Positions 26,277-64,000 of a DNA stretch of 64,000 nt are shown here, in pieces. The position numbers and the translations under genes are program-made. The notes beneath the pieces are model-generated. The model did no database searches and was not told the origin of the DNA. It saw only the letters and a program-made list of their open reading frames with translations. The number at the start of each line of letters is the position of its first letter. Within the stretch, counting starts at the first letter, position 1. The DNA lies in assembly GCA_037952775.1 (NCBI GenBank), contig JBANAY010000003.1, positions 28,706,001-28,770,000 of the forward strand, in the 5' to 3' direction. Source of the stretch: Clonostachys chloroleuca (taxonomy: Eukaryota; Ascomycota; Sordariomycetes; Hypocreales; Bionectriaceae).

Positions 26277-26883
26277 ATGGCTACCGAAACAATGACCCAG
26301 CTACAGCTAAACGCAACTGGCACCAACAAATCCACTGATGCCGAGAATTTGGTCAATACTTTCCAAAGCCTCAATATCAAACCTATCTGGACTCAAATGG
26401 AGAAGTTGAACCCGCCCCTGCCCAATCCAACTTGCGTCCCTCACATTTGGCGCTATGAGGATATCCGTCCGAGACTTCTCAAGGCTGGGGAGGTTGTGAA
26501 TGAGAAGCAAGCTGAGCGTAGAGTTCTCATGTTGATCAATCCTGCGAGAGGTTAGCTCCCGTCCCATGAATTGGCAATATACACCTCCGACTCATCAATA
26601 GATTCTCCATATACAACTGATACTCTATATGCCGGTCTGCAGCTAGTTATGCCAAATCAAGTGTCCAAAGCTCACCGCCACACTGCCTTTGCGATGAGGT
26701 TCATAATTGAAGGCCAGGGCGGTTTCACGGCTGTCCATGGTCGCCGGATCAAGATGCAGCGGGGGGATGTCATCCTGACGCCGACCTGGAACTGGCACGA
26801 CCATGGCAAGGATGGGTCTGGCCCTATGATCTGGCTAGATGGCTTAGATCTCCCCAACTTTCACCACTTTCCTGTGCACTTTA
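26277..26883 (+). pseudogene. Gentisate 1,2-dioxygenase, 5' half (interrupted)
   Basis: Exons 26,277-26,550 and 26,602 to the break at 26,883. Gentisate 1,2-dioxygenases are Fe(II) double-cupin enzymes that open the gentisate ring to maleylpyruvate. The first cupin is intact here: the metal-binding set reads AHRHTAF...[11 protein letters not shown]...[15 protein letters not shown], followed by [19 protein letters not shown]. Coding sequence stops at the cac-ttt codons and AT-rich repeat DNA begins. The gene resumes in the same sense and exact register at 43,630. The sequence ACTTTA at 26,878-26,883 recurs at 43,624-43,629 and is the candidate target-site duplication. Confidence 0.88.
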
Positions 26884-28190
26884 AGAATAATAATCTCTAT
26901 ACTTAGTTTACTATTTAGATAATCTTCTAGTATATCCTAAGAAAGAGTATCTCAGTCTATATTATACTATCTAAAGGTAGTTACTCTAAATATTAAAAGA
27001 AAATAAAAAACTAGTAGAGAGATAAGTTAATAGAGCTTAATATAAACTTTTTTATTAGAATTATATATAAAATAAATATATACTTTCTTAATTTAATCTA
27101 GAAGAGATATAATTAGCTAAATATTTTTTTTTTTTTTTTAGAGGGTTTTTACTATATTTAAAGGATATTCTAAGATCAGGCTATATATAACTAGATCTAT
27201 ATAATTTATTTTTAACTAAGTTTTAATCTGTACTTAATCTTTAACTCTATTTTTTTTTATCTTTTTATTTATATAAGCTAAGGTAAGGTAATAGTATCTC
27301 TAAAAACTCTAAGAAGGACTTACTAAGTATATAATTTAGCTATAGACCCTAAAAGGGAATACTTATTATCTATAATTAACTATAATATCTCTCTAAGCTT
27401 ATTATTACTAATCCCTAATTACTAACTACTAACTATCTCTCCTTATAATTATAATAATAGATACCTCTAATATTATTATCCCCTATAGCTAGGGCCTGGT
27501 TATTATAAGTAACTAGGTCCTTATACTTATAATAGTTATTATTAATAAGAACTATTAGGATCTCTTTTTAGATATTAATTATTTAAACCTACGATCTATT
27601 ACAGATTTACTTATAGTAATAAAGCTACTCTCTCTTATACAGACCTAGTAGTTATACCTACTAGGGCTATTACTCTATCTAGCAGCTAGCTAATAAGAAG
27701 GTATATAGATAATCCCAGCCTTTAATATACTTATAGAGGATTATATAAATATTCCTCTAGTACTTAATAATTATTATAATCTAATATACTATATATAGTA
27801 TCAGCAGGTAATATACTAGATTAAATTAATCTAAGCTGAGGTAGCTCTTTAAGTTTAAAAGTCTATTAGTTAGTAATATTAAGTAGGTAGAAGAGAATTA
27901 ATTAAATAAAATAGAATTATTAAAAAGTTTATTAGAGGGAAAAGTTAAATTAAATAAGATTAATTAGATAGTATTTAGAATTATAGTAGATTAGTTAATT
28001 ATTACTATAGAATATTTAAAGAATATAATAGCTAAGAAGTTACTATATACTAATTAAAAGACTAAATATAGTTTTATATAGTAGCTAAATATTTATAAAA
28101 TATAGATTATTAACTTAATAGATACTAGTTCTAATTAAAAATTAGAATTATTTATTTTCTCTAAAAATATTCTAATTCTAGACAAATGAA
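26884..28190. repeat. AT-rich, RIP-degraded repeat DNA (left part of insertion)
   Basis: About 1.3 kb with extreme A+T content, dense TA dinucleotides and stops in every frame, abutting the broken dioxygenase at one end and the F-box gene at the other. Patches such as ACTTATAGTAATAAAGCTAC near 27,613 recur in the islands at about 40,500 and (inverted) near 62,140. No open protein is left. Confidence 0.65.
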
Positions 28191-28194
28191 GCTA

Positions 28195-29616
28195 CTATAA
28201 CCCTTTCACTTCTTCGTATTCGTGAATTCGAACCTGTCGTAAAGACACAGGACGAAAAACTCGCTCGGAGTGACCGGGATGATGCACAGCACTACCCACA
28301 CAAGTCATCTTGGTCTCGTCAAGCATCTCCTGCCAAACATGCAGCTCGACACCATGCAACAACGCGACAGCCTGCCAGGCCTGGATAGCATAATCCTCGA
28401 GTTTCAAGTTCCATGTGCCCTTCCAAATGATGAGACCAGGCTCTAGGCGATATTGGAACATCCCTGCTAGTCCAGCCCTTCCGTTCCATATCTCCATGGT
28501 TTTTAGGTGTGGCATTTGTATCGCTACCTCTGCTCCTTTCCGAAATAAACTATTAGCGTCAGCCGACGGCGTCAACAGCTGTGAAGTCAAGGTAAGTGAG
28601 GTCAGATCCGGCCATGTCCAGGACGGTTCGCACTGGTCGAAAAAATTGCTGGCCCCAACCATAAACGATACCGAAAGCATCTCAAGCTTGAGACTTTGGT
28701 GGGCGAAGGTTTAGGTTAAGAGTTGATGCCGGTGTTCGCGAGGAGATGAGGCTTGCATAATAGCCATGTAGTGTTCGCTGAAGTTTTCTGAAACTATGAG
28801 GCGCCGTAAGGCAGGTGTAAAGTCCTCGCATGTTATGGCGGTATACTCTGTTGGCAATCTTGATTAGCCTATGGTAAACAAGTGTCGAGAAAAGACGGGC
28901 TTACCTTCATCCATTGACAACTGCTTCTCAGCACTCCACGCCCTCCATGGCTCATAATGGACTTGCTCGAGTCGAGGCATTTGCGAAAATAAGGACGCGA
29001 GATCAAATGGCAACCACTGCAAGCGATTTTGTTGACGTAAATTTACATTAGTTATTACTGGGACCGATGGGAATGGCATCTCGTCGGTAAAGTAACCCGG
29101 AACTTGGTCAAACGCTCGCTTAAGCTGCGAAGCAGTCGGCGCCAAATTATATACTATCCCAGCTGGCAGGCCTAGCTCTTGATCGTGGTCGCATTGAGTG
29201 TCCGTTAGATCAGGCTTGAGAGGTATGTGGGCAAAGCAGGGCTTTGTGTCCCAAGGCGAAAAGACACTCAAGTCGAGGGCGAGGTCTCCGTCGCTCGGGT
29301 CCCACAGACTGAGCGTCGAGAACAAACTCCGGAATGCTGATTCAATGAGCTTGGAGTTGGTTTCCCAGACAGCATTCCTCGTATCTTCTAGGTCTATGCG
29401 GAACCATATGGCCCGGATAAAATGTCGTTTGCAAGGAGCGATGAGCTTGAACCTAGGGAGGCGGCAAGGAGTCAAGGTGATGTGGGCGAAGTTTTGGGGT
29501 TCAATCAGATCTCTCCAAATGCACGAAGTTGCGGCGAGACTCGCTAGGCTGCATCCATTTCGACGGAGGCAGGAAATAATGAGGAATCGCAGCTCGTTGG
29601 GGAGAGTGGACAGCAT
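28195..29616 (-). pseudogene. F-box domain protein with one in-frame stop, inside the insertion
   Basis: About 455 codons in exons 29616-28905 and 28847-28195. The N-terminal F-box (LPNELRFLIISCLRRNG, then LAATSCIWRDLIEP) would bind Skp1 in an SCF ubiquitin ligase; the rest resembles the leucine-rich or variable substrate part of fungal F-box proteins. A TAA near 28,712, between HRHQLLT and TFAHQSLKLEM, interrupts the second exon; a CAA-to-TAA change would explain it and matches RIP. If an unrecognised intron removes it, the gene could be functional. Base composition is normal, in sharp contrast to the AT-rich DNA on both sides, so it may be cargo carried in by the insertion or a stranded chromosomal fragment. 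Confidence 0.65.
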
Positions 29617-30064
29617 AGTCGCGGTCTGTGGCTGGTTGATCTGGGTTGTCCGATTACGTGCGTGTCGAGATATGTGTTTGTGCTCTTCTTTTGCACAGGA
29701 GCAGCCAGCGAAGATGACGAGAAGAAGATTGATCTCCTTAAAAATGGCGGCAATCTTTTCTTAATTCTTTATCTTGGCTGGCCGCTCTTAATCAAGCTTT
29801 TATGCGAGTTGGATGTGTAAAGCCTGCGCTATATATGGCCAAGGGGCCACCCGTACTCACTGGGGTGGTTGACTCGTGCTTCGTACAGGTTGAAGTGGTT
29901 GGATTGGATAGGTAGATGACAATCGTCAAGTCAGGGGAAAGACGACAGCTTAAGTAGTTGATTTTGGAGACGCACAGCTCGCCCGATTGACTTATCGGGA
30001 TGAAGGTTTTTTTTTTTTTTTTTTTAACTTTTCTCCCGTATGACTGGGCAAGCGAAGCTTATTT
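29617..30064. other. Normal-composition flank upstream of the F-box gene
   Basis: About 450 bp of unremarkable composition with a run of about 19 T near 30,008-30,026. No gene is seen. It probably carried the F-box promoter. Confidence 0.4.
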
Positions 30065-30296
30065 CTAACCTCGAGGCTGTAGCTGTTGATTGTATTCACG
30101 TGGATCACGGCGGATAGGATCGAAATCACCTGCTCGAGGCCGCTTAAGGCTACAGCTGTTAATACTATTCGCGAGAGTCAGCGTGGATACGATCAAGGAG
30201 AGGTCTGACTTACCTGCTCGAGACTGTGACTGTTGATTGTATTTATCTGGATCGCGGTCAGCGATCAAGGAGAGGTCAGACCTACCTGTGTACTAG
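30065..30296. repeat. Degenerate short tandem repeat of normal base composition
   Basis: Three imperfect units built around an ACCTGCTCGAG...TGT(A/T)(A/G)CTGTTGATTGTATT core, with GATCAAGGAGAGGTC shared by units 2 and 3. It sits at the edge where normal-composition DNA gives way to the AT-rich island. Confidence 0.55.
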
Positions 30297-31454
30297 TTCC
30301 TTTACCCCTTAGCTTCTTATAGGGTTAATTTATTATAATAATTAACTTACAATAATCTTAATTTATTTTTTACTTTCTATTTTTATATCTAACTCTCTCT
30401 AGTCTAGCTTAATACTAATAAGAGTAAAACTAATAAATTTATTATATTTTCTATTATACTATCTACTTCTTTAATTCCTTATATTTAATCCCCTCTAATT
30501 CTATCTAATACTAATAAGAATAATATTAATAAATATATTATATCTTCTATTATACTATTTATTTCTTTAAATTCTCCTTCTATTAATAAGAAGATTATAA
30601 TACTTTACCTCTTAGTTTTAATTTCTTTAAAAATAAAAAGCTTTTAATTACTAATCTTAATAAGATCTAATTTAATAAAAATATTAATAATATTAGATTT
30701 ATTAATTCTAATAAAAGTTTCTATTCCTAGTAAATTAAAATAATAATATCTAGAGAATTAAAATTCTCTTTTTATACTATTTAATATCTACTTTATCTTT
30801 AAAATATAAATATCTAAATTTATAAAATAATCTATAATAAATAGTATTTATTTTCTTCTATTTTTATAATTTATATAGCTTTTCTAAATATCTTAATTTA
30901 TTATATTAAATATAATTATAATATATACTTATATCCTAAGATATATATTTTTATACTTCTATATACTCTTATAAGTTTTATTAATAGTTTATATTATAAA
31001 TAATCTATTAGTATTATAAAAGAAAATACTAAAAACTTTATATATATTTAGGGTTTTTTATACTAAATATATAGAAAATATATAGAAAATAATAGTATTA
31101 TTTTATTTAACTCTATTTATAAGAATATAGAAAATAAGTAAGAGTTTTAATTCTCTTATAGTATCTATATCTATATTACTAAAGCTTTATATCTACTTAG
31201 TAAATTCTTCTACTAATATAAAATCTAGATTTATTTATATTAGAATCTTAATAATATCTAGAAGAACTAATATAGTTATAACTCTAATTCTCTTAGGTTT
31301 ATACTTATTAATATATTATTAAACTATTTAAACTTTTTATCTTATTAAGAAAATAAATTATTATATTATACTATACTCTTTTATCTAGTTACTTCTTTAT
31401 AATATAATAAATAATCTTATAGGTTTTAATTAAACCTTATTAATATTTTACTAA

Positions 31455-31983
31455 CTTAAACTAATATATTCTACCAGTATATAGTCTAAATCAGTATATA
31501 GTCTACTTTCTTATTATACCTTAATAGCCTTTTTTCTAAGAGCTATTTCTAGCTTATTTTAAGCTAAAAAGATCCACTTTTTCTATATAGTAATCGATAA
31601 GGGTTTTCTATTAGTTATAATTTTCCTAGATTTTTTAGATTTTATCTAGCTATATAACTAGGAAAAGTAGAGCTAAGATAAGAGAAAGTCTTTAGATATA
31701 TAGCTAAATAAAATCTAATAAATCTAGGAAAATTATAACTAATAGAAAACCCTTATCGATTACTATACAGAAAAAGTGGGTCTTTTTAGCTTAAAATAAG
31801 CTAGAAATAGCTCTTAGAAAAAAGGCTATTAAGGTGTAATAAGAAAGTAGACTATATACTAGTTTAGACTATATACTGGTTTAGACTATATACTGGTTTA
31901 GACTATATACTGGTTTAGACTATATACTGGTTTAGACTATATACTGGTTTAAACTATATACTGGTAGAATATATTAGTTTAAG
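31455..31983. mobile_element. Foldback/MITE-like element with long inverted arms and a 17-bp minisatellite
   Basis: The left arm 31,455-31,656 (202 bp) and right arm 31,697-31,983 (287 bp) are inverted copies around a loop of about 40 bp. Both ends carry CTTAAACTAATATATTCTACC or its complement. The right arm is longer by 85 bp, exactly five extra 17-bp units. It encodes nothing, so it would be a non-autonomous foldback element. Confidence 0.7.
31849..31967 (+). repeat. 17-bp tandem repeat, seven units
   Basis: Seven head-to-tail copies of AGACTATATACTGGTTT, the first with TAG for TGG and the last slightly diverged. The opposite arm has only about two units, so the array expanded on one side of the foldback element. 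Confidence 0.85.
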
Positions 31984-32597
31984 AGACTTAAGATAACTAG
32001 CTTTATCTCTAAATTTGTTCTATTAATTATATATATATTATTTAGTAGTAGATAGTATTAAAATATAAATACTCTCTTTATAAAGTAATATTAAATAATC
32101 TATATAATAAGAATAATAAGATAATAGATATTTAAATAACTAAGTATATCTAGATTATAGATTAGTTCCCTATAGAACTTAAAATATCTTAAGTAGAAAT
32201 AATATATATTTTAATCTCTTTATAATTATTTATAGATTTTTTATTTTTATTTCTAATTATATAAATTCTTTAAAATATTATAAAAAGTATTTAAATTCTA
32301 AATATTATAATCTTTAGTATATTATATAGCTAGTATAACTAATTATATATAAATAAGTATTAGATTAATATTAAATCTATATTATTTCTAATAAAAGTAT
32401 TCTATAATTATAAATATATATTATACTTATAGAAATAAAATAACTAATAATTTTAAATAACTAACTTTTTTTATTTCTAAATATATATAATTTTAAATTA
32501 AACTAAAATAAATTCTAATATACTTTTATATTATTTATACTCTCTAAATCTAAAGGTTTTTCTTAGCTTTTTTTAAATTCTATTTATTTAATAAATC

Positions 32598-33366
32598 TTT
32601 TGTAAGGTCAAGGTCTCTAGTATAGGGTAGACCAGCTGTAGGGTAAGCTGGGTCTAGGGTAGATAAAGCCTATAGGGTAGGCTCTGAAATACTAGAGAAG
32701 GATCGTTTGAAAAGGCGTAGTAGAAGGTGCAGGCTCTATAAGAGAAAATAAAGCTCTATCAGCTACAGGGTAGCTAAGAAAGATAGACTGTAGGGTAGAT
32801 AAAAGAGTGTATTGGTGACTTATAGAATCTCTATCTAGCAGGGAGGAAGCCCTGTACTTATAGGTGTTTCCAGGCTGTAAGAGCCCTGAAGATAACACGT
32901 TGCCTTCTGTAATACAGGCTCGTAACCGCTATAAGGTTCTCGTACAGAGGGATACGAGACCGCTAATGCAGATGCTACAGCGGATACGAAGTCCGCTAAT
33001 ACAGCTGCTATAGTGGTTACGAGGTTCACTAAACTAAGTGCTAAGGTTCTCGTACGGCGGATACGAGGTCCGCTAATGCAAGCGCTGCAGCGGACACGAA
33101 GTCCGCTAATGCAGCTGCTTCAGTGCAATACGGGATCGCTAGCACGGACGCCACAGCGGCCGTTACAGCGGTTGTAACCGCTAACGTAATTGCCCCAACG
33201 GGCAGCCACAGTGGGTTGGGCCAGTGGCTTCAGAGGGCTCCCAGCTTTAGAGAGCCCTAAGTTAGTTATTTCATTCCCCCTTACCCTATATTAATTATAT
33301 ATTATTTGATCAATTAATATAGGGTAATCTTGATCTACCCTATAGTCTATAGGGTAAATCTTAATA
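32598..33366 (-). repeat. 3' LTR of the Copia element
   Basis: 769 bp. In element orientation it starts TATTAAGATTTACC (TGTTGAG in the partner LTR) and ends CCTTACAAAA. It is near-identical to the 5' LTR at 38,679-39,447, and includes short units alternating CGGATACGA and GTCCGCTAAT. Confidence 0.9.
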
Positions 33367-33374
33367 CCCCTTCT
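33367..33374 (-). other. Polypurine tract of the Copia element
   Basis: On the minus strand AGAAGGGG lies directly before the 3' LTR, where the plus-strand primer is expected. Confidence 0.65.
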
Positions 33375-33385
33375 GAAGGAAATAA

Positions 33386-36300
33386 CTAGGTTAGATCCTT
33401 ACAGTACTCTTTCAGGCCTAGTAGCTCTCTAAAGGCCTGTTGAAGAGGTGCGGTTAGTGGTTTAGTTAGCCCATCAGCGGGTATAGCCTTAGTTTCCAGG
33501 TAACTAAGGCTCGCTAAACCCTCTGTAATTTGAACCCTGTTATAGTGGAACTTCAGCAGTGTATGCTTAGTTCTAGCGTGTAGGGTAGGGTTATTACTAG
33601 TAGCTATACAGCCCTGGTTATTACAGTAGATAGTTACAGGGGTTTTTAGAGGCTGGTTTAGCTCTTTATAGAGCCCTGTTAGCCACTGTAGCTCTCTGAG
33701 AGCCTCTGTAAGGCTATCTGCTTCAGTCTCTACAGTGGAGAGAGCTATAGTAGTTGCCTTCTTAGCTTTCCAGCTGATAGGGCCTCCAGCTAGCTTAAAG
33801 AGATACCCGTAGGTAGATTTGCTAGTGGATTTATCCTCTGCAAAATCACTATCACAATAGCCTTCTAGGGGCTTATTTAGTGAATAGGCTATAGCTAGGC
33901 TTTTAGTACCTTTCAGGTACTGTAGAAGCTTTTTAGCAGCCTTAAGGTGAATTTTATAGGGCTTATATATAGCCTGGGCTAGCTACTGGACTGAAAAGGC
34001 TATATCAGGCCTAGTTTGAAGCATTAGGTATATTAAAGTCCCTATAATCTGCTGAAATAGCCTGTGTTCCAGGGGTTTATAGAGACCTGTAGCCTCTATA
34101 GCTTCCGCTGTGAGCCTTGTAAGATTAGGCTGTAGGGGTACTAATAGAGGTTTTTCTTCAGTGATCTTAAAGGCCTGTAAAGCCTGTTCGATATACTGAG
34201 GTTGAGAGAGATATAGGGTCTTTTTAGACCTATCTCGGTGAATTTGAACCCCTAAGAAGAAGGCTGCTGGCCCCTTATCTTCTATAGGGTAAACCCTATG
34301 AATTTCCTTCTTTAGCTTATTAATATAGCTAATTTCAGGGCCTATTATAAGGCAGTCATCCACATAGGTCACTATAAAGGTGGCCTTTTTAGCGTTATAG
34401 AAGACCGCCGGGTCGGAGATTAGGGGGCTGAAGCCTAGAGACCTTAGCAGGGCTTTCAGTGCCTCTTGCCACTCTCTAGGGGACTGCTTTAAGCCGTACA
34501 GGGCTTTTAGCAGTAGGATAACCTGCTCTTCAGAAGGGTTATAGCCCTGAGACTTGGCTATAGCGAGTAATTCAGGGCTTTTCTTCAGCAGTTCCTTCAG
34601 GCCTTCAGGGAGCTTCATATAGAGCCTTTCAGTAAGTTTACTGTTTAAAAAGGCCCCTATAAAGTCAATCTGTTCAACATTATAGCTATAGATAGCTGCT
34701 AGAGCTAATAGCAGCCGCCAGGTTGGAGGGATAGCTGTAGAAGCGAAAGTCTCGCTATAATCTAGGCCTTCCACCTGTAAAAACCCTCTAATAACAAGCC
34801 TAGCCTTATATTTCAGCGGCTTATTATAGGGGTCAAGTTTCAGCTTTAGCACCTGCCTACAGCTTAGGGCTCTACGGCCCTTAGGTAGGTCTTTTAGTGC
34901 TATAAAGGCGAAGGTTCCAGTGCGTATTAGCTGCTCAAGCTCGCTAAAGATAGCCTGTAGCCAGGGCTCTTTCTCTTTTAGTGGCAGCTGTAGCACCTCT
35001 TTCCAGCTGTTAGGCTCTAGCGAGAGCCGGGCTTTAGCGCATATTATAGCGCTTGCTTGGTATGCTATAGCGGTTGCCTGTGCCCAGTTAGATAGGTCCA
35101 TTGGATCACCTATAGGCTCTGTATTAGGCCTTAGCTCACTGGGTTGGTGTGCTGTAGCTAACGGAGTTTCAGGCTCTAAAGGCCCTGTAGCTTCAGGGAC
35201 TTCAGGCTCTTGAGGCTCTGAAGCAGGTGCTGTAGCCAGCGGTATTTCGGGCTCTTGGAGGGGCTGTTGTAGCGGCTCTACTTGGAGGGGCTGTTGTAGC
35301 GGCTCTAGCGGCTCCTGTAGCGGCTGTTGTAGCAGCTCTAGCGGCTCTTGAGTCTCTTTCACATACTCTATTTCCTCTATTTCCCCTTCTAAAGGTCTCA
35401 AGAGAGGCGGGTTTTGCAGTTGTAAGCCCTGTTTTATAGGGCCTATATCCTCTAAAATCCTTAGATAAGAGGTCTTAGTAACTAGCCTCTTCTGTGGGAT
35501 ATAGATCTGATATATCTTAGAGCCTAAAAGTGCTAAAATTCGCCCTGAGATAGTTCTAGGGGCTAATTTAGCAGCCTTAGCCCGCTGTTCAGGATGAATA
35601 AAGGCTTCACAGTAGGCTCCAATAGCCTTATAGGCCTGAAAATTAGGCCTAAAGGGAGTTCCAGGCTCTAGTTCTTGAAGGAATAGCTGTTGCGGGGGTA
35701 AATCGCGGTTGCTAACAGCGGTACAGTTAACTAACTGAAGGACCCCTGGAAGGATATAACACCAGAGGTATAGCGGGAGCCTAGACCACTGTAAAACAGC
35801 CCTAAGCCTATCCATTAGCACTCTAATAGAGCGCTCAGCAAGCCCATTTTGCTGGTGAATATAGGGGCTTGAGGTGCTAAAGGCAGTACCTTTAGCAGCT
35901 AGCTAATCTACTAAATCCCTTGTAATTTCTCCGCTATCAAAGTGAAATTTAGCGGGATAGCGCTTATAGCGATTATATAGGCCCTGGCAGAAGCCTTGAA
36001 TAGCAGTTGCTATAGTAGTTCCTTCCTTATTAGGGAGGAGAATAACCCATCTATAGCGGGTTTTTCTATCCACTAATATAAGCCCTATAGGCCTTCTATT
36101 ATGCGGTATAGGCTTGAGATAGAAGGTATCCCCTTCTATAGAGTCTAGAGCTCTAGGCGGGTCAGGGATAGCTGTATGCACTGGAAGCCTGTGGCTTTTA
36201 GCGCTAATACAGCCTAAACAGAGGAAATCTTCCTCTCTTATAGGGCTAAAATCAGGGAGACCTTCTGTAATTTTAGCGGTCTTCTTCAGTAACTGAAGCC

Positions 36301-38512
36301 CTAAGTGCCCTAGCCGTATGTGCCAAATACCCGCTAATTGTAGCAGGTCTTCGTAGGTCTTAGGCGCCTGTGGTGGGGGCTTAATAGCGCTAATAGTTCC
36401 TTGCTTTAGAGCCTCTTCAGCGCTAAAGTCAGGATTATCCCCTTCTGAAGGCTTATGAGTAAGGACCTTAGTAGGGGTTTTAGCATACTGTTCAGCGGGC
36501 TCAGTAAGCTCTACAGCAGGCTGTTCAGTGGGCTCAGTGAGCTCACTAGGCCCTGTAAGATCTAGGGCCTCGGGGGCCCAATCAGGGGCCTTAGAGGGAA
36601 TTTGAACCTCTATCGTATGTTGTTTAGTGGGTTCAGTGAACTCACTAGGCCCTGTAAAGTCTAGGGCCTCGGGGGCCTATTCAGGGGCCTTAGAGGGGAT
36701 TTGAACCTCTATAGGGTAGCTATAGCTAGCGTAGGCAGAGGGCTCCTTCGGCATTATTAGCTTAGGGGTCTTTTCCCCCTTTAGCTGCAGATAAAAGCCG
36801 TGTTTTTCAAAGTTCAGCAGGCTACAGCAGGTTCTATCACCTGTAAATAGCTGTTACCTCAGAAGGGTACCCCCTGAACTATAGTGCCTTATCCCACTGA
36901 CTATATTAGTCTCCAGGGTAGGCAGGAAAAGGGCTTCTTTTAGCTCTAAGTCCCTATAGGTTAGGGGGTTTAGAGAGATTAGAACTTAAAATACAGCGGT
37001 TCTAATACCTCTAGGGTAGGCCTTATCAGCAGCTGTAAGAATAAAGCCTGCTTCAGAGTATTTTAGGGCTTTATAATCCCTATAACAGGCTTTATTATTC
37101 ACTAAGTAAACTGTAGAGCCTGTATCGTACAGAAGGGTGTTTAGCGGTCCACGCCCCTGACTGCTAAAGCTAGTAGCGATAGGAGCCGCTGTAATTCCAG
37201 CGGGTTCAGGGGACTGATAGGTCTGGAAGGCTGGCCAGGGGCTCTCTTCATCGCTATCTTCTAGCGGGCTTCGAAGGTTTTCCAGGCTATAGCCCAGGGT
37301 AAAACTAGCGGGTTTAGCTAGCTTGTCTTTAGGGGCTTTAGGCTTTAACCCCTTCTGTTGGGTCTTTCCCTTAGAGGTCTTTTCAGAACTCGAGGGCTTC
37401 TTTTTAGCGGGTCTTTCAGTGTGTTTAGCCCTGTAATTAGTAGCCTTAGCTACTGAAGAGCTCTTATCACGCTGTTCCTCCAGAAGGTCCGCTATAAGGA
37501 ACTGTAGGTTCAGAGGCTCCAGGGAGCCTCCAGAGGCTTTAGTAACCCTAATATTGTTCCGTTGGCGCTCAGCCCACTGTGGGAAGACCCCTTTTAGAGC
37601 CTCCAGGTACTGATTAGCCTGATCCACAGGGGCTATAGTAACCTGAGCTAGTGATAGCCGAGCTAGAAGGTTGTTGAATGCGCTATTAAAGGCCTCTAAA
37701 GAGCCTTTGAAGTCCCTGTAACAGAGCCTGTGAAATTGGGTATATAGGTGGCCGCGCTGAATTTCAGCACTATAAGAGAACTGTTTAACCAGTAACTTAT
37801 AGGCCTCCACAGGGGAGGTCTGCCAAGTTATAGCGGCTTGTAGACCCTCTGTACAGCTATCTTTTAGCAGCATAAGTAAGATAGCCTGGTCTGGGTCTGA
37901 TAGCTGCTGGGCTACAGTGGGTTCTGCTATAAATAGCGGTAAACTAAGGGCCCTGAATTAGATCTCTAGGGCCTGTTTCCACTGATCGAAGTTGTGAGAC
38001 CCCTGTAATTTAGAAGCTTCAGGGAACTTATAGACCCTTTTATTGAAATCCTTAATAATAGAGTCTTTAAAGACTCTAGTCAGGGGGTTAGGGCTTTGAA
38101 AGCCCTGTAAGCTAGGCTGTTGTGAAGCCTGACTGCTCTGTAGGCTAGCGCTAGTAGCGCTGGAAGCCTGTTGACTAGTGCTAGTAGCGCTAGGGGTCTG
38201 CTGTAATTGTAGCAGGTTTACAGCAGCTGTTAGCTGCTGAAGGGTTTGCTGTATAGCGGTGATAGCTTCAGTGGTATTCGGGTTCTGAAGGCTCTGAGCG
38301 ATAGCAGTACTTTCCGCTGTAGAGCCTGAAGGAATAGCGCTAGTAGCGCTAAAATCAACCGGTTGATCAGCTACGGCAGCAGTGCTAGCCGTTGGAATAG
38401 CGCTAGTAGCGCTAAAAGTGATCGGTTGGCTGGGTACGGCAGCAGTGCTAGCCGTTGGAATAGCCGCTGAAGAAGGGTAAGTTTCAGCACCTTCAGGGGC
38501 TGATCCCTCCAT
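33386..38512 (-). pseudogene. Copia Gag-Pol polyprotein with multiple nonsense codons
   Basis: One frame of about 1,708 codons. Gag begins at 38,512 with a Ser/Ala/Thr-rich tail, then an FNSAFNNLLARL-type region. The protease motif is LYDTGSTVYLVNN (about 37,110). A GAG-pre-integrase segment (WHIRLGHLGLQLL) precedes the integrase, whose acidic triad falls in LVDRKTRYRW, FHFDSGE and QQNGLAERSIR. The reverse transcriptase shows YKARLVIRGF, DFIGAFLNSKL, YGLKQSPREW and the YVDD box (about 34,360). The RNase H part ends at 33,386. Stops are seen at 37,958, 36,986, near 36,855, 36,677, 35,903 and 33,983. The Gln/Pro/Leu repeats near 35,240-35,350 form a linker between integrase and RT. The protein cannot be made from this copy. 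Confidence 0.9.
36523..36712 (-). repeat. Two-copy tandem repeat in the Gag-Pol linker
   Basis: Two 91-bp copies (36,523-36,613 and 36,622-36,712, period 99 bp) encode repeated SELTEPTEQ...IPSKAPDWAPEALD-like segments. The copies differ mostly by transitions. Copy one has a Trp codon where copy two has TAG (36,677-36,679). Confidence 0.8.
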
Positions 38513-38664
38513 ATAGCTATCTTCATCAGCTATTTTAGGTCTTCTTTAGTAAAGGAAGCCACTAAGACCTAGGCTGAGGTATAGGGTAAGTATATAACTT
38601 TCCTAGTATAGGGTAAGAACTCTTAATCCTAAGATAAAGCTCTTTTTCACAAGATAGAGCTCTT

Positions 38665-38678
38665 CCGGGCTTATAACC
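38665..38678 (-). other. Primer-binding site, probably initiator-tRNA-Met half type
   Basis: Directly after the 5' LTR the element reads GGTTATAAGCCCGG. This is one change from the complement of the anticodon arm of initiator tRNA-Met (GGTTATGAGCCC), the primer mode known for Drosophila copia. The G-to-A difference would itself fit RIP. The tRNA assignment is inferred. Confidence 0.55.
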
Positions 38679-39447
38679 TTTTGTAAGGTCAAGGTCTCTA
38701 GTATAGGGTAGACCAGCTGTAGGGTAAGCTGGGTCTAGGGTAGATAAAGCCTATAGGGTAGGCTCTGAAATACTAGAGAAGGATCGTTTGAAAAGGCGTA
38801 GTAGAAGGTGCAGGCTCTATAAGAGAAAATAAAGCTCTATCAGCTACAGGGTAGCTAAGAAAGATAGACTGTAGGGTAGATAAAAGAGTATATTGGTGAC
38901 TTATAGAATCTCTATCTAGCAGGGAGGAAGCCCTGTACTTATAGGTGTTTCCAGGCTGTAAGAGCCCTGAAGATAATACGTTGCCTTCTGTAATACGGGC
39001 TCGTAACCGCTATAAGGTTCTCGTACAGAGGGATACGAGACCGCTAATGCAGATACTACAGCGGATACGAAGTCCGCTAATACAGCTGCTATAGTGGTTA
39101 CGAGGTTTACTAAACTAAGTGCTAAGGTTCTCGTACGGCGGATACGAGGTCCGCTAATGCAAGCGCTGCAGCGGACACGAAGTCCGCTAATGCAGCTGCT
39201 TCAGTGTAATACGGGATCGCTAGCACGGACGCCACAGCGGCCGTTACAGCGGTTGTAACCGCTAACGCAATTGCCCCAACGGGCAGCCACAGTAGGTTGG
39301 GCCAGTGGCTTCAGAGGGCTCCCAGCTTTAGAGAGCCCTAAGTTAGTTATTTTATTCCCCCTTACCCTATATTAATTATATATCATTTAATCAATTAATA
39401 TAGGGTAATCTTGATCTACCCTATAGTCTATAGGGTAAATCTCAACA
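38679..39447 (-). repeat. 5' LTR of the Copia element
   Basis: 769 bp, in element orientation TGTTGAGATTTACC to CCTTACAAAA. It is nearly identical to 32,598-33,366 and is followed on the plus strand by the AAATC duplication. Confidence 0.9.
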
Positions 39448-39452
39448 AAATC

Positions 39453-41273
39453 TAATATTAATAATATTAATACTAATATTATTATTTAGATCTATATTAG
39501 TTTTATATATAACTTATATATAAATCTTAATCTGAGTTTCTATTTTAATTCTTATTAAAAATAGAAATTTATTCTAAATTAATATATTAAATATTATATT
39601 AATCTCTAGATTTTTTCTAAAATAGAAATAATATTCTATATCTTTCTAGATAATTAGTACTTTTTAATATAAGAGCTTTTTTTATAATAATTATAATATT
39701 TAATTTTAAATTTATTAACTAGAGGCTTTTATTTTTTTTACTAAAGTATTATTTATTCTAAATAAATTATTTAATTTAAAGAGTTTTAGAGAATCTTTAG
39801 ATTATAAAGTATATTTAAAAAGTAATATCTTTTACTATTATTAAATCTATAATTATAATTATTATTATTTTTATAATTCTCTAAGAGATATTTATAGTTT
39901 ATAAAATACTTAGTAGTTTAATTACTTTTTTATATTTTTTTAAAATCTAGTTTATATATAGATTAATTTTATTAATTTTACTATAAATAAGAGTATATTC
40001 TAAGATTAGATAATATATAATCTAATATATATTTTTTAAAAATATAATTAGTAATCTATATTTAAATCTTTAATACTATAAAATAAAATTAAAATATAAT
40101 ATTTTTAACTAAGATATAGATATTAATCTTATAAAAACTCTAGTAATAGGAGATATTTATATAGTATAGCTAGATATATAAATACTCTAGCTATAACTAT
40201 AGTCCCTAAGAGAAGAAGTTTATTATCTAATAATAATAGCTATCTTTACTTTTTAATTTAAAGCTTATTATAATTAATTAATTAATTATATCTTACTATA
40301 ATTACTTAATTAATTAATTATTAAATATCTTAAATAGCTATAATATCTAATATAAATATTCTAATCTCTTAGAATCTGATTAATACTTCTAATAAGATCT
40401 TTAAAGTAATAATAATAGTTATCTAAGGTAATCTAATATAGCTATTTACTAATTATATTTATAATATATCCCTCTAATCAGTTAAGAGCCTACTTATAGT
40501 AATAGTAATAAAGCTGCTATATATATATATAGATTAATATAGTTCTAGAAGAATTAAAAAAGTTTAATAAAGAAAAAATAAACTTTTTTTATTTTAATTT
40601 TAAAATAAATTATTTTTTAATTAAATTAAAATAAATATAAAACTTCTTTAAAAAAAAATTTTTTATTAAACTTTTTCTAAATTTTAATAAAAATAAAATT
40701 TATAAATTAATATCTCTTTTAGAAAGAATAAATATTATTTAATAAATATAATATAATCTACTAGTATATATATTAAATTAGTATATATACTACTTTTTCT
40801 AATTTTCTTATTAATAAGCTTATAATTTCTACTCTAAAGCTTTATATTTCTATATATAATTTTAATTTATTATTATATATTAATATAGCTAAAAAAAATA
40901 CTTTTCTAAAAATAGTTTATATATAATAAACTATAGAGCTTAATAAATTAAGTAATAATACTATATTTTTTTTATCTTTTTCTACTCTATCTCTCTCTCT
41001 CTCCTTTAATAAAACTACTATAACTAAAATATTATATTCCTAGATAGATCTTAATCAGGTTTAACTAAATAATTAGCTTTAAGATCTCTTAACTAGATCT
41101 AATTAAAATATAATCTAACTAGTTTTAGAAATATATTTTTACTATTTTTAATAAAGCTTAATTAAAATACTTTTTAATTTTTTTTTAAATCTAATTACTT
41201 AAAATAATTTTAAAACTTAAACTAAATAAGTTTTTTTATTATTTTATAAATTTATATATTATAATCTATTTTA
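39453..41273. repeat. AT-rich, RIP-degraded repeat DNA between Copia element and solo LTR
   Basis: No open frames remain. The part at about 39,960-40,520 is an inverted copy of about 62,130-62,690, and 40,740-40,830 resembles 63,180-63,330 in direct orientation. A short CT microsatellite lies near 40,990. Confidence 0.6.
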
Positions 41274-42019
41274 TTATATATTAAGATTTACCCTATAGAC
41301 TATAGGGTAGATCAAGATTACCCTATATCAATTAATCAAATAATATATAATTAGTATAGGGTAAGGAGGAATAAAATAACTAACTTAGGGCTTTCCAAAG
41401 CTGGAAGCCCTCTGAAGCTACTGGCCTAACCTACTGTGGCTGCCTGTTGGGGTAATTGCGTTAGCGGTCACAACCGCTGTAACAGCCGCTGTGGTGTCCG
41501 TGCTAGCGATCCCGTATTATACTGAAGCAGCTGCATTAGCGGACTTTGTATCCGCTGCAGCGCTTGTATTAGCAGACCTCGTATCTGCTGTATAAGAACC
41601 TTAGCACTTAGTTTAGTAAACCTTATAACCGCTGTAGTATCTGTATTAGCAGTCTCATATCCCTCTGTATAAGAACCTTATAGCGGTTACAAGCCTGTAT
41701 TACAGAAGGCAATATATTATCTTCAGGGCCCTTACAGCCTGGAAATATCTATAAGTACAGGGCTTCCTCCCTGCTAGATAGAGATTCTATAAGTTACTAA
41801 TATACTCTTTTATCTACCCTATAGTCTATCTTTCTTAGCTACTCTATAGCTGATAGAGCTTTATTTTCTCTTATAGAGCCTATACCTTCTACTATACCCT
41901 TTCGAATAATCCTTCTCTAGTATTTCAGAGCCTACCCTATAGGCTCTATCTACCCTAGATCTAGCTTACCCTACAGCTGGTCTACCCTATACTAGAGACC
42001 TTGATCTTTTAAAATTATA
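41274..42019 (+). mobile_element. Solo LTR of the same Copia family, opposite orientation, older
   Basis: 41,279-42,014 aligns over its length with the 769-bp LTRs, on the other strand. It starts TATTAAGATTTACC and ends CTTTTAAAA. TTATA flanks it on both sides (41,274-41,278 and 42,015-42,019), the mark of an LTR-LTR recombination product. Many C-to-T and G-to-A changes against the full element show it is older and RIP-affected. Confidence 0.82.
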
Positions 42020-43623
42020 TATATAATATTACTAAGTATCTTATTCTTAATAAGATTTCTAATTCTACTTTATATAATCTTTAGTTTATATTTACTTTTT
42101 AATATTTCTCTAAATAACTAAATCTTAGAATTTCTATATATTAAATAATTCTTTTTTTATAGATATAATTTCTTAGTTTTTTAATATTTATTTAAATATT
42201 TATTTATCTTTCTAAGTTTTACTATTTCTTCTTTTAGAATAATAAGCTTATATATAATCTATTATATATCTTTAATAATCTATTTAATACTTTAAATAAT
42301 TAAACTTAGAGAGTTATTCTAATAGTATTATATCTATCTCTTAATATATTTAAATTATAAAATTATTTCTATTAGATTAATTAGAATTTTTAATTATTAA
42401 AAAATAAATAATTTAAAAAAGAACTTTAATAATATTAATATATTTATTTATATATCTAGCTTTAAAATTATACTTTTAGTATTTAAAGAGATAAATTTAA
42501 TATTTTAAAAATCTTTTTAAATATTTTCTTTTATAATAAAGATATTAAATATTTTAAAAAATATAGAGAAAAAGTTCTTTTTTATAATATAAATAATCTA
42601 GATCTTTATTAAATATTTAATTTTAATAATTATAAACTTTTTTTAATAAATTAAAATAATTAATATTTAATAATTAGAATAAATAAAAAAAAATATAAAA
42701 AAAAATATAAAAAATAATAATATCTTTTTACTTATAATATTTCTTAAACTTTATTAAATAATAGTTTTTATAACTATTTAGTATAAAAAAATAATATTTA
42801 CTTTTAGTTTAAATTTAAATACTTTAATTAAAGTATTTAATCTAATTTATAATAATTTTATTTAAGATTTAATTCTTTTTATTAATAAAGATTCTCTAGT
42901 TAGATAGAAAGAGAATATTTTAAATTTAGAATAAAAAATAATATTAGCTTTTTATTATTAGAAATAGTAAAATTATCTAGCTAGCTATATTAACTATTTA
43001 AATTAAAGAAATCTATTTCTAATTATTAAATTATATTAATTTAAATCTTACTATTTAATTAGAGTATATAATTATAATATAAGTACTAATCTAGTTTATT
43101 AGAAAACTAGTTTTATTAAAATTATATATATTTTTATTAAGAATACTATATTTAGCTATTATATTCTATATAAAATTAAACTATAGATAGATAATTTTAA
43201 GATCTTTATATAAAGCTCTTTAATAGTTATATTTATAAGATAAACCTATTTTAAATAGTAATTAAGATTTAATAAAAAATCTAATTAATACTAATATACT
43301 CTATATTATAATTATATAGTAAGAGATTAATTATATCTTCTAGCTTAAGAAAATATAATAAAAATACTTAAGAATTTAAATTAAAAATCCTTTTAATAAT
43401 AATCTATTTCTTTAGATTAATAAGATTTTAATTACTAGATTAATAATCTATTTAAGAAGTATAATCTTATCTATTTTATATTAGGGTTATATAATTAATA
43501 TTATAGGTTATTATAATCTATTAGAGATTTAATTTTAAATCTCTCTTTAAGGTTTAAAGAGCTAGAATAAATTAATACTTTTTACTAGTAGATAATATAT
43601 TTTATATATAGTTTATTTACTTT
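42020..43623. repeat. AT-rich, RIP-degraded repeat DNA, right part of insertion
   Basis: About 1.6 kb. The part at about 42,920-43,530 is an inverted copy of about 63,350-64,000, with long stretches matching apart from transitions. It ends at the resumed dioxygenase coding sequence. Confidence 0.65.
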
Positions 43624-43629
43624 ACTTTA

Positions 43630-44177
43630 TTGAGCATTATAAGAAACCTCGTTATCCTGCCAAAGACGTCGATACAAACTCGTCACCTATCGTCTTCCCT
43701 TGGGCCAAAATGAAGGAGAGTCTTGATAGTGTTCCAGGGACATGGGCATCAAAAGATTACCTTAAAAACGACGACCGGCAGGTGTCCAAGATCTTGGGCG
43801 GTTTGGCCGGAGCGATTTCATGCCGGCACTTCATCTCCCAGCATTCGGGAAACCAGCTCATCCGTCTACCATGTTGTGTCTGGGCAGGGATACTCAATAG
43901 TTGGGAGTAAAAAGATCCAATGGAAGGCTGGTGATACGTTCTGTATTCCGTCCTGGTTCCGGTATTAGCATGTAGCGGACGAAGCTACCGATGTTTATCT
44001 TTATCGCTTCATGATAAGCCCATGCTTAGCTCCCTCGGTTTCTATCGTGTAGAGGGCACGGATTTAGAGGCTTTGGTATCTGACTATAAGTCAGCATTTG
44101 CCGCATTGAATACAATATGCAAAGCAGTATGCTTCGTCCTGAGAGTTTGGCCTATATCATGTTGCAGTATACAATAA
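43630..44177 (+). pseudogene. Gentisate 1,2-dioxygenase, 3' half, frameshifted and with a nonsense codon
   Basis: Coding similarity resumes as EHYKKPRYPAKDVDT, IVFPWAKMKESLDSVPGTW and QVSKILGG. A one-base loss near 43,800-43,812 shifts to a second frame with RFHAGTSSPSIRETSSSVY and the second cupin (HVVSGQGYSIVG, WKAGDTFCIPSW). TAG at 43,966-43,968 stands where Gln would follow FRY. After DVYLYRF another base is lost (about 44,010), and the last frame gives KPMLSSLGFYRVEGTDLEAL down to TAA at 44,175-44,177. With the 16.7-kb insertion in front, this half cannot be expressed as part of the enzyme. Confidence 0.85.
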
Positions 44178-60980: not shown

Positions 60981-61149
60981 TCTAGGACAATGTACGAAGC
61001 TAAGACATCAGTTGTATTTTTGAACAAGAACTCATCTAAAGCTGGATAAGATTTATGTAGTTTTTCTAATAAAGAAAACAGGAGGCAACAAGGTCAGAAG
61101 TCCACAATATAATCATTACCACACTTATATACCAGGACAACGGTTATTC

Positions 61150-64000
61150 CATTGCTAAACTCGAGGTTACTCAGTATATATATATATCTATAAGGCTTTA
61201 TAGTATAAAGCACTTAGCTATTAATACTATAACTATTGGTTAATCGGTTTTCCGGCTTAAGATTTATATATTAATTAATAAAATAGTAAGTACTATTATT
61301 TAAACTAATATTCTAATATATATTTATATAATAGTAATTATTAGTTAAAACTCCTAATAACTGGAGCTATTCTTTATACTTTTATAAGCCTGTATTCTAT
61401 TCCGAGATAAAAGTTTAGTTTTATAGTTTAGTTATTTCTATCTATAGTATATTAATATAAGTAGTAATATTTTATACTTATATCCAAGTTAATATCTTAA
61501 GTAAAATATAGATCTTTTTAGTTCCAAATCTTATATAATCTTAGAGTTAATTTCCTAATAGTAATAAAATAGAGTTTATATTAATAGAATAAGTATTAGT
61601 ATTTATATTATATTATAATATCTAGTATATTATATAGTATAATTAATTATATATAAATAGATATTAGATTAATATTAAATCTATATTATTCCTAATAAAA
61701 ATATTCTATTATTATAAATATATACTATATTTATAAAGATAAAATAATTAATAATCTTAAATAACTAGCTTTTCTTATTTCTAAATATATATAATTTTAA
61801 ATTAAATTAAAATAAATTCTAATATACTCTAATCTAATATAAATAATATCTTAATCTAAATATAACTAAAAAAATATAAAGTTTAAATAATTAATTTTTA
61901 AAAACTATCTTTATTCTAATTATCTTAATATAGTATATAATATATTAAAACTATAAGTTATATATTAGACTATAGTAAGTCTATATAAGAGAGTAGCTAT
62001 TCTTAAGATATAGTATTTTCTTAAGCTTATCTTAATTCTTTATAAATTTCTATAATAATAGTTATAAGTAGTAAGCTATATAAAGTAATAGATTAAGTAG
62101 ATATAGCTACTAGATCTATAATATTAAGAGTAGCTTTATTACTATAAGTAAGCTCTTAATTAATTAGAGAAGTATATTATAAATATATTTAGTAAATAGC
62201 TATATTAGATTACTTTAAATAACTATTATTATTATTTTAAAAATCTTATTAAAAGTATTAATTAAATTCTAAGAGATTAGAATATTTATATTAGATATTA
62301 TAAATATTTAAAATATCTAGTAATTAATTAATTAAATAATTAATAATAAAATATAATTAATTAATTAATTATAATAAGCTTTAAGTTAGAAAGAAAATAT
62401 AGTTATTATTATTAGATAATAAGCTTACCCCCTTAGAGGTTATAGTTATAACTAGGTTATTTATATATCTAGCTATATAAATACTTTCTATTACTAGAGT
62501 TTTTATAAGATTAATATCTATATCTAGACTAAAAGTATAATATTTTAACTTTATCTTATAGTATTAAAGATTTAGATATAAACTACTAATTATATTTTTA
62601 AAAAATATATATTAAATTATATATTACCTAATCTTAGGATATACTCTTATTTATAGTAAAACTAATAAAAAGAAAATTAGTCTATATTATATTTTCTCCT
62701 TTAATTATTTATTTCTATTTATAAAATTTATATATTTCTTCTTTCTATTTTTAAACTTATTTAAGATATTTCTTTATATAGTTAATATTATTGCTAGTAT
62801 CTTTTATAATTCTTAATACTTCTTTCTTATTATCTAAGTAGTTTATATAGTTCTAATTATAGTATTATTTAATATAACTATTATATTTATAAGTAGCTTA
62901 AGCTTTAAATTCCTTTTATTTATACTAAAGTTTAATCTTAGAGTTTTAATAGATTTTATATTTAGTATTTTAATATAATTTAATATATTATCTCTCTATA
63001 TTATACTTATAGAGATATTCTTCTAATATCCTATTATAAATAAAGACCTCTAATCTAGCTATAGGAAGTTATATATAAGATAGCTTAGCTAACCTACCTT
63101 AAGAACTAATAAGATTAACTTTACTCTAGTTAAATAAGGTCTAAGTAAAGCCTAAGTAAAACCTTAATAAATATACTAGTATATATATATATTTATTTCT
63201 ATAACTTAGATAATATAATCTACTAGTATACTAAATAAACTAATATACTAAATACTTTTTCTAATTTTCTAATTTTCTAACTTTATATTTACTTCCCCTT
63301 ACTAAAAAAATATATTATAAGCTAATAGTTATAATTAAATTACTTTAATACTTTAAGCTTTATAAAAAGATCTAAAATTAAGCTTTTAAAAAACTATATT
63401 AATCTATAATATTAGCTATATAATACTCTATAATTACTAGTATAGCTATACTACTTAATCTAATTATTAATCTAGTAATTAGAATTTTACTAATCTAGAG
63501 AAATAGATTATTATTAAGAGAGTACTTAATCTAGATTCTTAAGTATTTTTATTATATTTTATTAAAATAGAAGATATAATTAATCTCCTACTATATAATT
63601 ATAATATAAAGTATATTAGTATTAATTTAATCTCTTACTTTATTAAATACTAACTATTACTTAAGATAATTCTATTTTATAAATATAATTATTAGAGAGT
63701 TTTATATAAAGATTCTAAGATTATTTAATTATAGTTTAATCTTATATAGAATATAGTAGCTAAATATAATATTCTTAATAAGAATATTTATAATTTTAAT
63801 AAAACTAGTTTTCTTATAGATTAAATTAGTATTTATACTATAATTATATACTCTAATTAAATAATAAGATTTAAATTAGTATAATTTAGTAATTAGAAAT
63901 AAGTTTTTTTAATTTAGATAATTAATATAGCTAGTTAGATAATTCTACTATTTCTAATAGTAAAAAACTAATATTATTTTTTATTCTAAATTTAAAATTC
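61150..64000. repeat. AT-rich, RIP-degraded repeat island at the right edge (inverted relative to the insertion)
   Basis: About 2.85 kb running to the window end, with extreme A+T and no open frames. About 63,350-64,000 is an inverted copy of 42,920-43,530; about 62,130-62,690 is an inverted copy of 39,960-40,520; 61,600-61,840 is a direct copy of 32,310-32,530. The underlying element type cannot be read because RIP has erased its coding sequence. Confidence 0.65.

Follow-up and report, generated by a model that had tools for sequence, protein, structure and literature searches.

A Gentisate-Dioxygenase-Like Gene of Clonostachys chloroleuca Split by a 16.7-kb Nested Insert between Two Copies of a 6-bp Sequence

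In the soil fungus Clonostachys chloroleuca, two pieces of a cupin gene lie in the same sense on either side of 16.7 kb of other DNA, which raises the question of whether they were once a single gene and, if so, what came between them. The locus (26277..44177) belongs to the window, the whole 64,000-nucleotide stretch that was analyzed (C3:28,706,001-28,770,000, on a contig, C3, of 37,472,460 bases), and searches covered a genome of 59,374,895 bases in four contigs. A preliminary description had claimed that the 6-bp sequence ACTTTA stands at both borders of the insert and that removal of one copy restores continuous codons. Both copies are read where it placed them (Table 1), and the codons across the join are CAC TTT ATT GAG CAT, as it had said. 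The left half ends in the residues HHFPVHF, and the right half continues with IEHYKKPRYPAKDVD after one copy of ACTTTA is removed.

A search with the intact paralogue L044 as the query gave 2,739 homologues, and each gene piece was compared separately with the best 120 of these. Among those 120, the top match of every piece was the same uninterrupted protein, C. byssicola P0063, and the insert sits exactly between its residues 185 and 186, with no residue gained or lost, which bears out the proposal that the ancestral site is marked exactly. The right piece matches P0063 at 91.7% over residues 186-245 and then, in a different frame, at 83.8% over residues 246-319. Four paralogues were found in the genome, and all four are uninterrupted at the site (L043, L044, and L046 by abutting translated matches; L045 by sequence inspection). 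L044 shares 97% identity with a protein of Clonostachys rosea, and L046 (C3:34674000-34677000), the nearest paralogue, is itself damaged (short deletion, frame loss, and stop). The DNA of L046 across the site is CCACTTTGTTGAGCAT, with a single ACTTTG, and P0063 is without an extra residue. An uninterrupted allele, which the preliminary description had suggested seeking in relatives, is thus present at the protein level (C. byssicola P0063) and at the DNA level (paralogue L046), and the halves are separate genes, which would have spoken against its reading, in none of the five relatives examined (four paralogues and one orthologue). A single gene was almost certainly split at exactly this place.

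Table 1. Positions of the gene pieces and of the layers of the insert, counted from the first letter of the window
Feature	Position	Strand	Remarks
Exon 1	26277..26550	+	86.8% to P0063 residues 1-91
Predicted intron, 51 nt	26551..26601	+	GT...AG and P0063 protein
Exon 2 before insert, first cupin	26602..26883	+	96.8% to P0063 residues 92-185
ACTTTA, left copy of probable target duplication	26,878-26,883	+	
Orphan AT-rich left end, RIP-like composition	26884..27119	.	Only itself found
LINE-like repeat, T-run end and adjoining part, RIP-saturated	27120..28127 (right limit approximate)	-	
F-box/DUF6546 gene, one premature stop	28195..29616	-	DUF6546 E 3.8e-45
Three minisatellite units, 73-74 bp apart	30070..30257	.	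Upstream of F-box gene
RIP-saturated AT-rich block	30320..32592	.	GC 0.162, CA 5, TG 9 (30,320-32,590)
AAATC, left target duplication of copia	32593..32597	+	
Copia LTR retrotransposon, least mutated layer	32598..39447	-	RVT_2 E 2.2e-44
AAATC, right target duplication of copia	39448..39452	+	
RIP-saturated block, LINE-like from ~40,729 on its right	39453..41273	.	
Solo copia LTR (41,279-42,014), TTATA on either side	41274..42019	+	
LINE-like repeat, rightmost part, cut off at ~43,604	42020..43604	-	CA 0, TG 0, TA 353
AT-rich 19 bp	43605..43623	.	No repeat family matched
ACTTTA, right copy of probable target duplication	43,624-43,629	+	
Gene remainder, second cupin	43630..44086 (end approximate)	+	P0063 matches

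A repeat of 6 bp or longer arose by chance in 0.28% of draws over a 155-bp stretch of the gene and in 0.78% at the actual point (200,000 draws each, with random insert ends taken from the insert's own AT-rich parts). ACTTTA occurs nine further times within the insert, so the repeat alone is modest evidence. A border marker independent of the duplication is the edge of repeat-induced point mutation (RIP). Counts of CA plus TG per 100 bp run 16, 16, 16, and 17 up to the left border and then 1, 0, 1, and 1 from 26,884; at the right border, they run 0, 0, 0, and 0 to 43,629 and then 10, 14, 15, and 10. With these steps, RIP composition ends at the duplication on both sides, as expected if RIP hit the insert alone. 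The rightmost part of the LINE-like repeat retains neither CA nor TG (Table 1) and the gene halves are normal, a RIP signature restricted to the inserted repeats. Taken with the gene join and with the RIP edge, it becomes strong evidence for insertion: the ACTTTA repeat does not stand by itself.

The first cupin, in the left half, scored above the cut-off of PF07883 (E 1.4e-14), and the second, in the right half, just below that of Cupin_2 PF07883 (E 3.5e-6; 27.1 bits against 27.2). The left half also matched TIGR02272 (E 7.6e-39) below the cut-off, which, at 442.1 bits, was reached neither by the fragments (133.6 and 32.3 bits) nor by the intact paralogue L044 (255.7 bits). Matches in NCBIfam and the PDB are to ring-cleaving enzymes, namely gentisate 1,2-dioxygenase and its relatives, all NCBIfam scores being below cut-off. 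We have kept the name at gentisate-dioxygenase-like because TIGR02272 stays below its cut-off, in the intact L044 too; gentisate ring cleavage is a putative function, read from the source labels of homologues and from PDB names. The 5' half is open once the predicted 51-nt intron is removed; the genomic reading of that intron has an in-frame stop, and P0063 reads NPARDSPYTT there. The 3' half has a frame change near 43,800, another near 44,020, and a nonsense codon (43,966-43,968) at a position where P0063 and the intact paralogues have glutamine, and its reading extends beyond the end of P0063. The split gene is now a pseudogene with a decayed 3' half, the small indels of which may in part be read errors if a Nanopore assembly is the source.

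Inside the 16.7-kb insert lie LTR insertions with 5-bp duplications of their own, in support of the nesting that the preliminary description had proposed. The larger is a full copia element, in which RVT_2, paired LTRs, and a 5-bp duplication are all found, as in Ty1/copia retrotransposons; its coding part is spread across several open reading frames. Identity between its LTRs is 98.3% over 771 bp, and a global alignment of 771 columns contains 13 transitions and 2 transversions, both transversions being in the last columns, outside the LTR. Twelve of the 13 transitions are of RIP type (CpA/TpA or TpG/TpA). Because the element has a GC content of 0.465 beside RIP-saturated repeats and its LTR differences are nearly all of RIP type, it seems lightly RIPped. 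The same 12 of 13 rule out the LTR pair as a clock, and stand as a warning that LTR-pair divergence is unsuitable for dating here. The LTR family is common, with at least 41 matches including the two in the window, all at 93% or more (155 candidates, 40 scored). The solo LTR is 87.5 to 87.9% identical to both copia LTRs, in inverted orientation, and interrupts a LINE-like repeat that is continuous at that point in five other copies (L013-L017).

That repeat is putatively a truncated LINE-like element, judged by its T run and its cut-off end. The T run (~27,120-27,140, + strand) marks sequence with 78-95% matches elsewhere in the genome. In a multiple alignment, all five of the other copies share sequence with the window to the right of the T run, with no consistent similarity to its left, and blastn matches of L017, L018, L022, and L023 extend to 27,037-27,071. 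The run is plain in the window, L022, L023, and L024, interrupted in L017, and unclear in L018; it is also present in L006. At the opposite end, nine aligned copies agree with one another beyond ~43,604 and not with the window. Among 41 other matches at this end, for which 40 of 48 candidates were scored, two (L019 and L020) reach 43,624 and none of the rest goes beyond 43,616; when aligned, L019 and L020 go with the other copies. No target duplication of the repeat was seen by eye in the multiple alignment. Tad is an example of the fungal LINE (non-LTR) retrotransposons. The repeat resembles these in its T-run start (an A-tail on the other strand), its copy-specific flank, and its cut-off opposite end, and departs from them in that its own target duplication was not seen and that one of the five aligned copies, L018, is without a clear T run. 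A second AT-rich island occupies the right end of the window (61000-64000; GC, about 0.14-0.18); within it, positions 63,307-63,713 match the LINE-like repeat at 79%.

No element ending at either ACTTTA was found, and neither the leftmost 236 bp of the insert nor its rightmost 19 bp matches a repeat family. The 236 bp (CA 1, TG 0, TA 51) returned itself alone in a DNA search of the genome that skips very common words, and a longer query, for which 40 of 88 candidates were scored, gave 45 other matches that all stopped at 27,023 or to its right. With nhmmer, the same piece gave no match in 41 loci (147,622 bases), in which a control of equal length matched 11 loci at eight distinct places. RIP normally requires a repeat. 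Sister copies of this RIP-saturated piece may have been lost or be too mutated to find, or the piece may have arrived already mutated. As unrelated AT-rich sequence also lies left of the T run in L006 and L007, the orphan end may be a regular trait of the LINE-like repeat and not a separate first element.

Besides transposons, the insert carries a host-type gene, F-box/DUF6546, with a predicted 57-nt intron (28,848-28,904) and a surrounding GC content near 0.49. Its protein is identical at 440 of 454 residues (97%) to P0127, named Clonostachys chloroleuca, and the next full-length relative is 39% identical (among the best 120 of 191). With the F-box open reading frame alone as the query, a length-limited protein search returned six proteins that were 33-54% identical. 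A genome search found no second DNA copy of the gene; the DUF6546 part matches six other places in the genome at 33-44%. Comparison of the inner border of the segment with L017 scored 190 for the left piece and 176 for the right, against at most 148 when the left piece was shuffled 200 times, with borders too fuzzy to place a duplication. Units similar to the minisatellite ones occur in 16 other genome matches (68-81%). Within the neighboring RIP-saturated block, positions 31455-31983 contain a 17-bp unit repeated in tandem, together with inverted arms that are 188 nt long and 96% complementary.

The locus is probably best explained by a transposition that struck exon 2 and duplicated 6 bp, followed by RIP and further insertions. 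An intact gentisate 1,2-dioxygenase-like gene would have been broken in exon 2 by a mobile element, the staggered cut of which duplicated ACTTTA, and the inserted DNA would then have been mutated by RIP and have gathered further elements. The added layers would be the LINE-like repeat, the F-box/DUF6546 segment, and an LTR element of which a solo LTR is left. The copia retrotransposon was probably the last to arrive, as it is the least RIPped layer; the order of the older layers is one that we infer. The duplication could instead stem from repair of a double-strand break in the gene, in which AT-rich DNA was captured and 6 bp were duplicated by fill-in; the first cut would then be transposon-free, and later elements would have landed inside the captured DNA. 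The two border pieces, in no repeat family found, and the LINE-like copy cut off at ~43,604 would suit such filler; against it, a short clean duplication without codon loss is typical of transposition, and both nested LTR insertions carry 5-bp duplications. We regard repair filler as an unlikely source of the outermost DNA, and retain it because no element was found to end at ACTTTA. Multi-copy families are present within the insert, and we infer transposition, not filler DNA at a break, as the origin of the duplication. It is a doubtful proposition that an undescribed mobile element of low copy number, with ends at 26,884 and 43,623 and the ability to carry host genes, was the first to insert; if it was, the F-box/DUF6546 gene would be cargo moved into a metabolic gene.

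Transposition by stages into one gene was also set against three accounts with other starting points. Misplacement of an island from elsewhere into the gene during assembly is very improbable. The likely source, the C. chloroleuca Cc878 assembly, is a scaffolded Nanopore assembly with a read N50 of 10,471 bp, less than the insert length, and a reported depth of 161x and QV of 45.75 (PMC11256822); misplacement would not be expected to leave RIP edges and a duplication precisely where the gene is joined. Delivery of the island by a Starship or another captain-borne large element is hardly credible: a host-type gene does lie inside the island and DUF3435 genes do exist in the genome, but the island is small and layered, and a Starship was rejected on the absence of a DUF3435 captain from the window (0 of the 39 matches listed). 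That two separate cupin genes stand 16.7 kb apart by happenstance and were never one is practically inconceivable, being ruled out by the exact abutment on P0063 and the read-through in all four paralogues; the left reading frame, moreover, enters the insert by 7 codons only.

Among the papers found in literature searches, none reports this locus in its title or abstract opening. The split gene is a further example of a known phenomenon, gene interruption by RIPped transposons in ascomycetes, and not a new kind; it raises no new question of principle, and its value is that of a clean, base-exact case in which a member of a biocontrol genus lost a gene to nested transposons. In the available part of a study of RIP in Clonostachys, LTR/Gypsy repeats of C. 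chloroleuca exceed 1 on the composite RIP index (PMC7896725); it gives genome-wide indices by repeat class, not a single-gene case, and the word "gentisate" is absent from its text. The accessible portion of another report (PMC13401452) concerns homothallic strains of C. rosea, the mating-type locus of which has AT-rich repeats. In Pyrenophora teres, going by the part of the source at hand, genes are interrupted by transposons in a RIPped genome (PMC5915480). That case and the present one have in common a coding sequence interrupted by transposable elements, RIPped repeats, and GC-rich gene islands within repeats; they differ in the fungus and the genes concerned, and in C. chloroleuca the join is fixed by the duplication, the orthologue, and the RIP edge.
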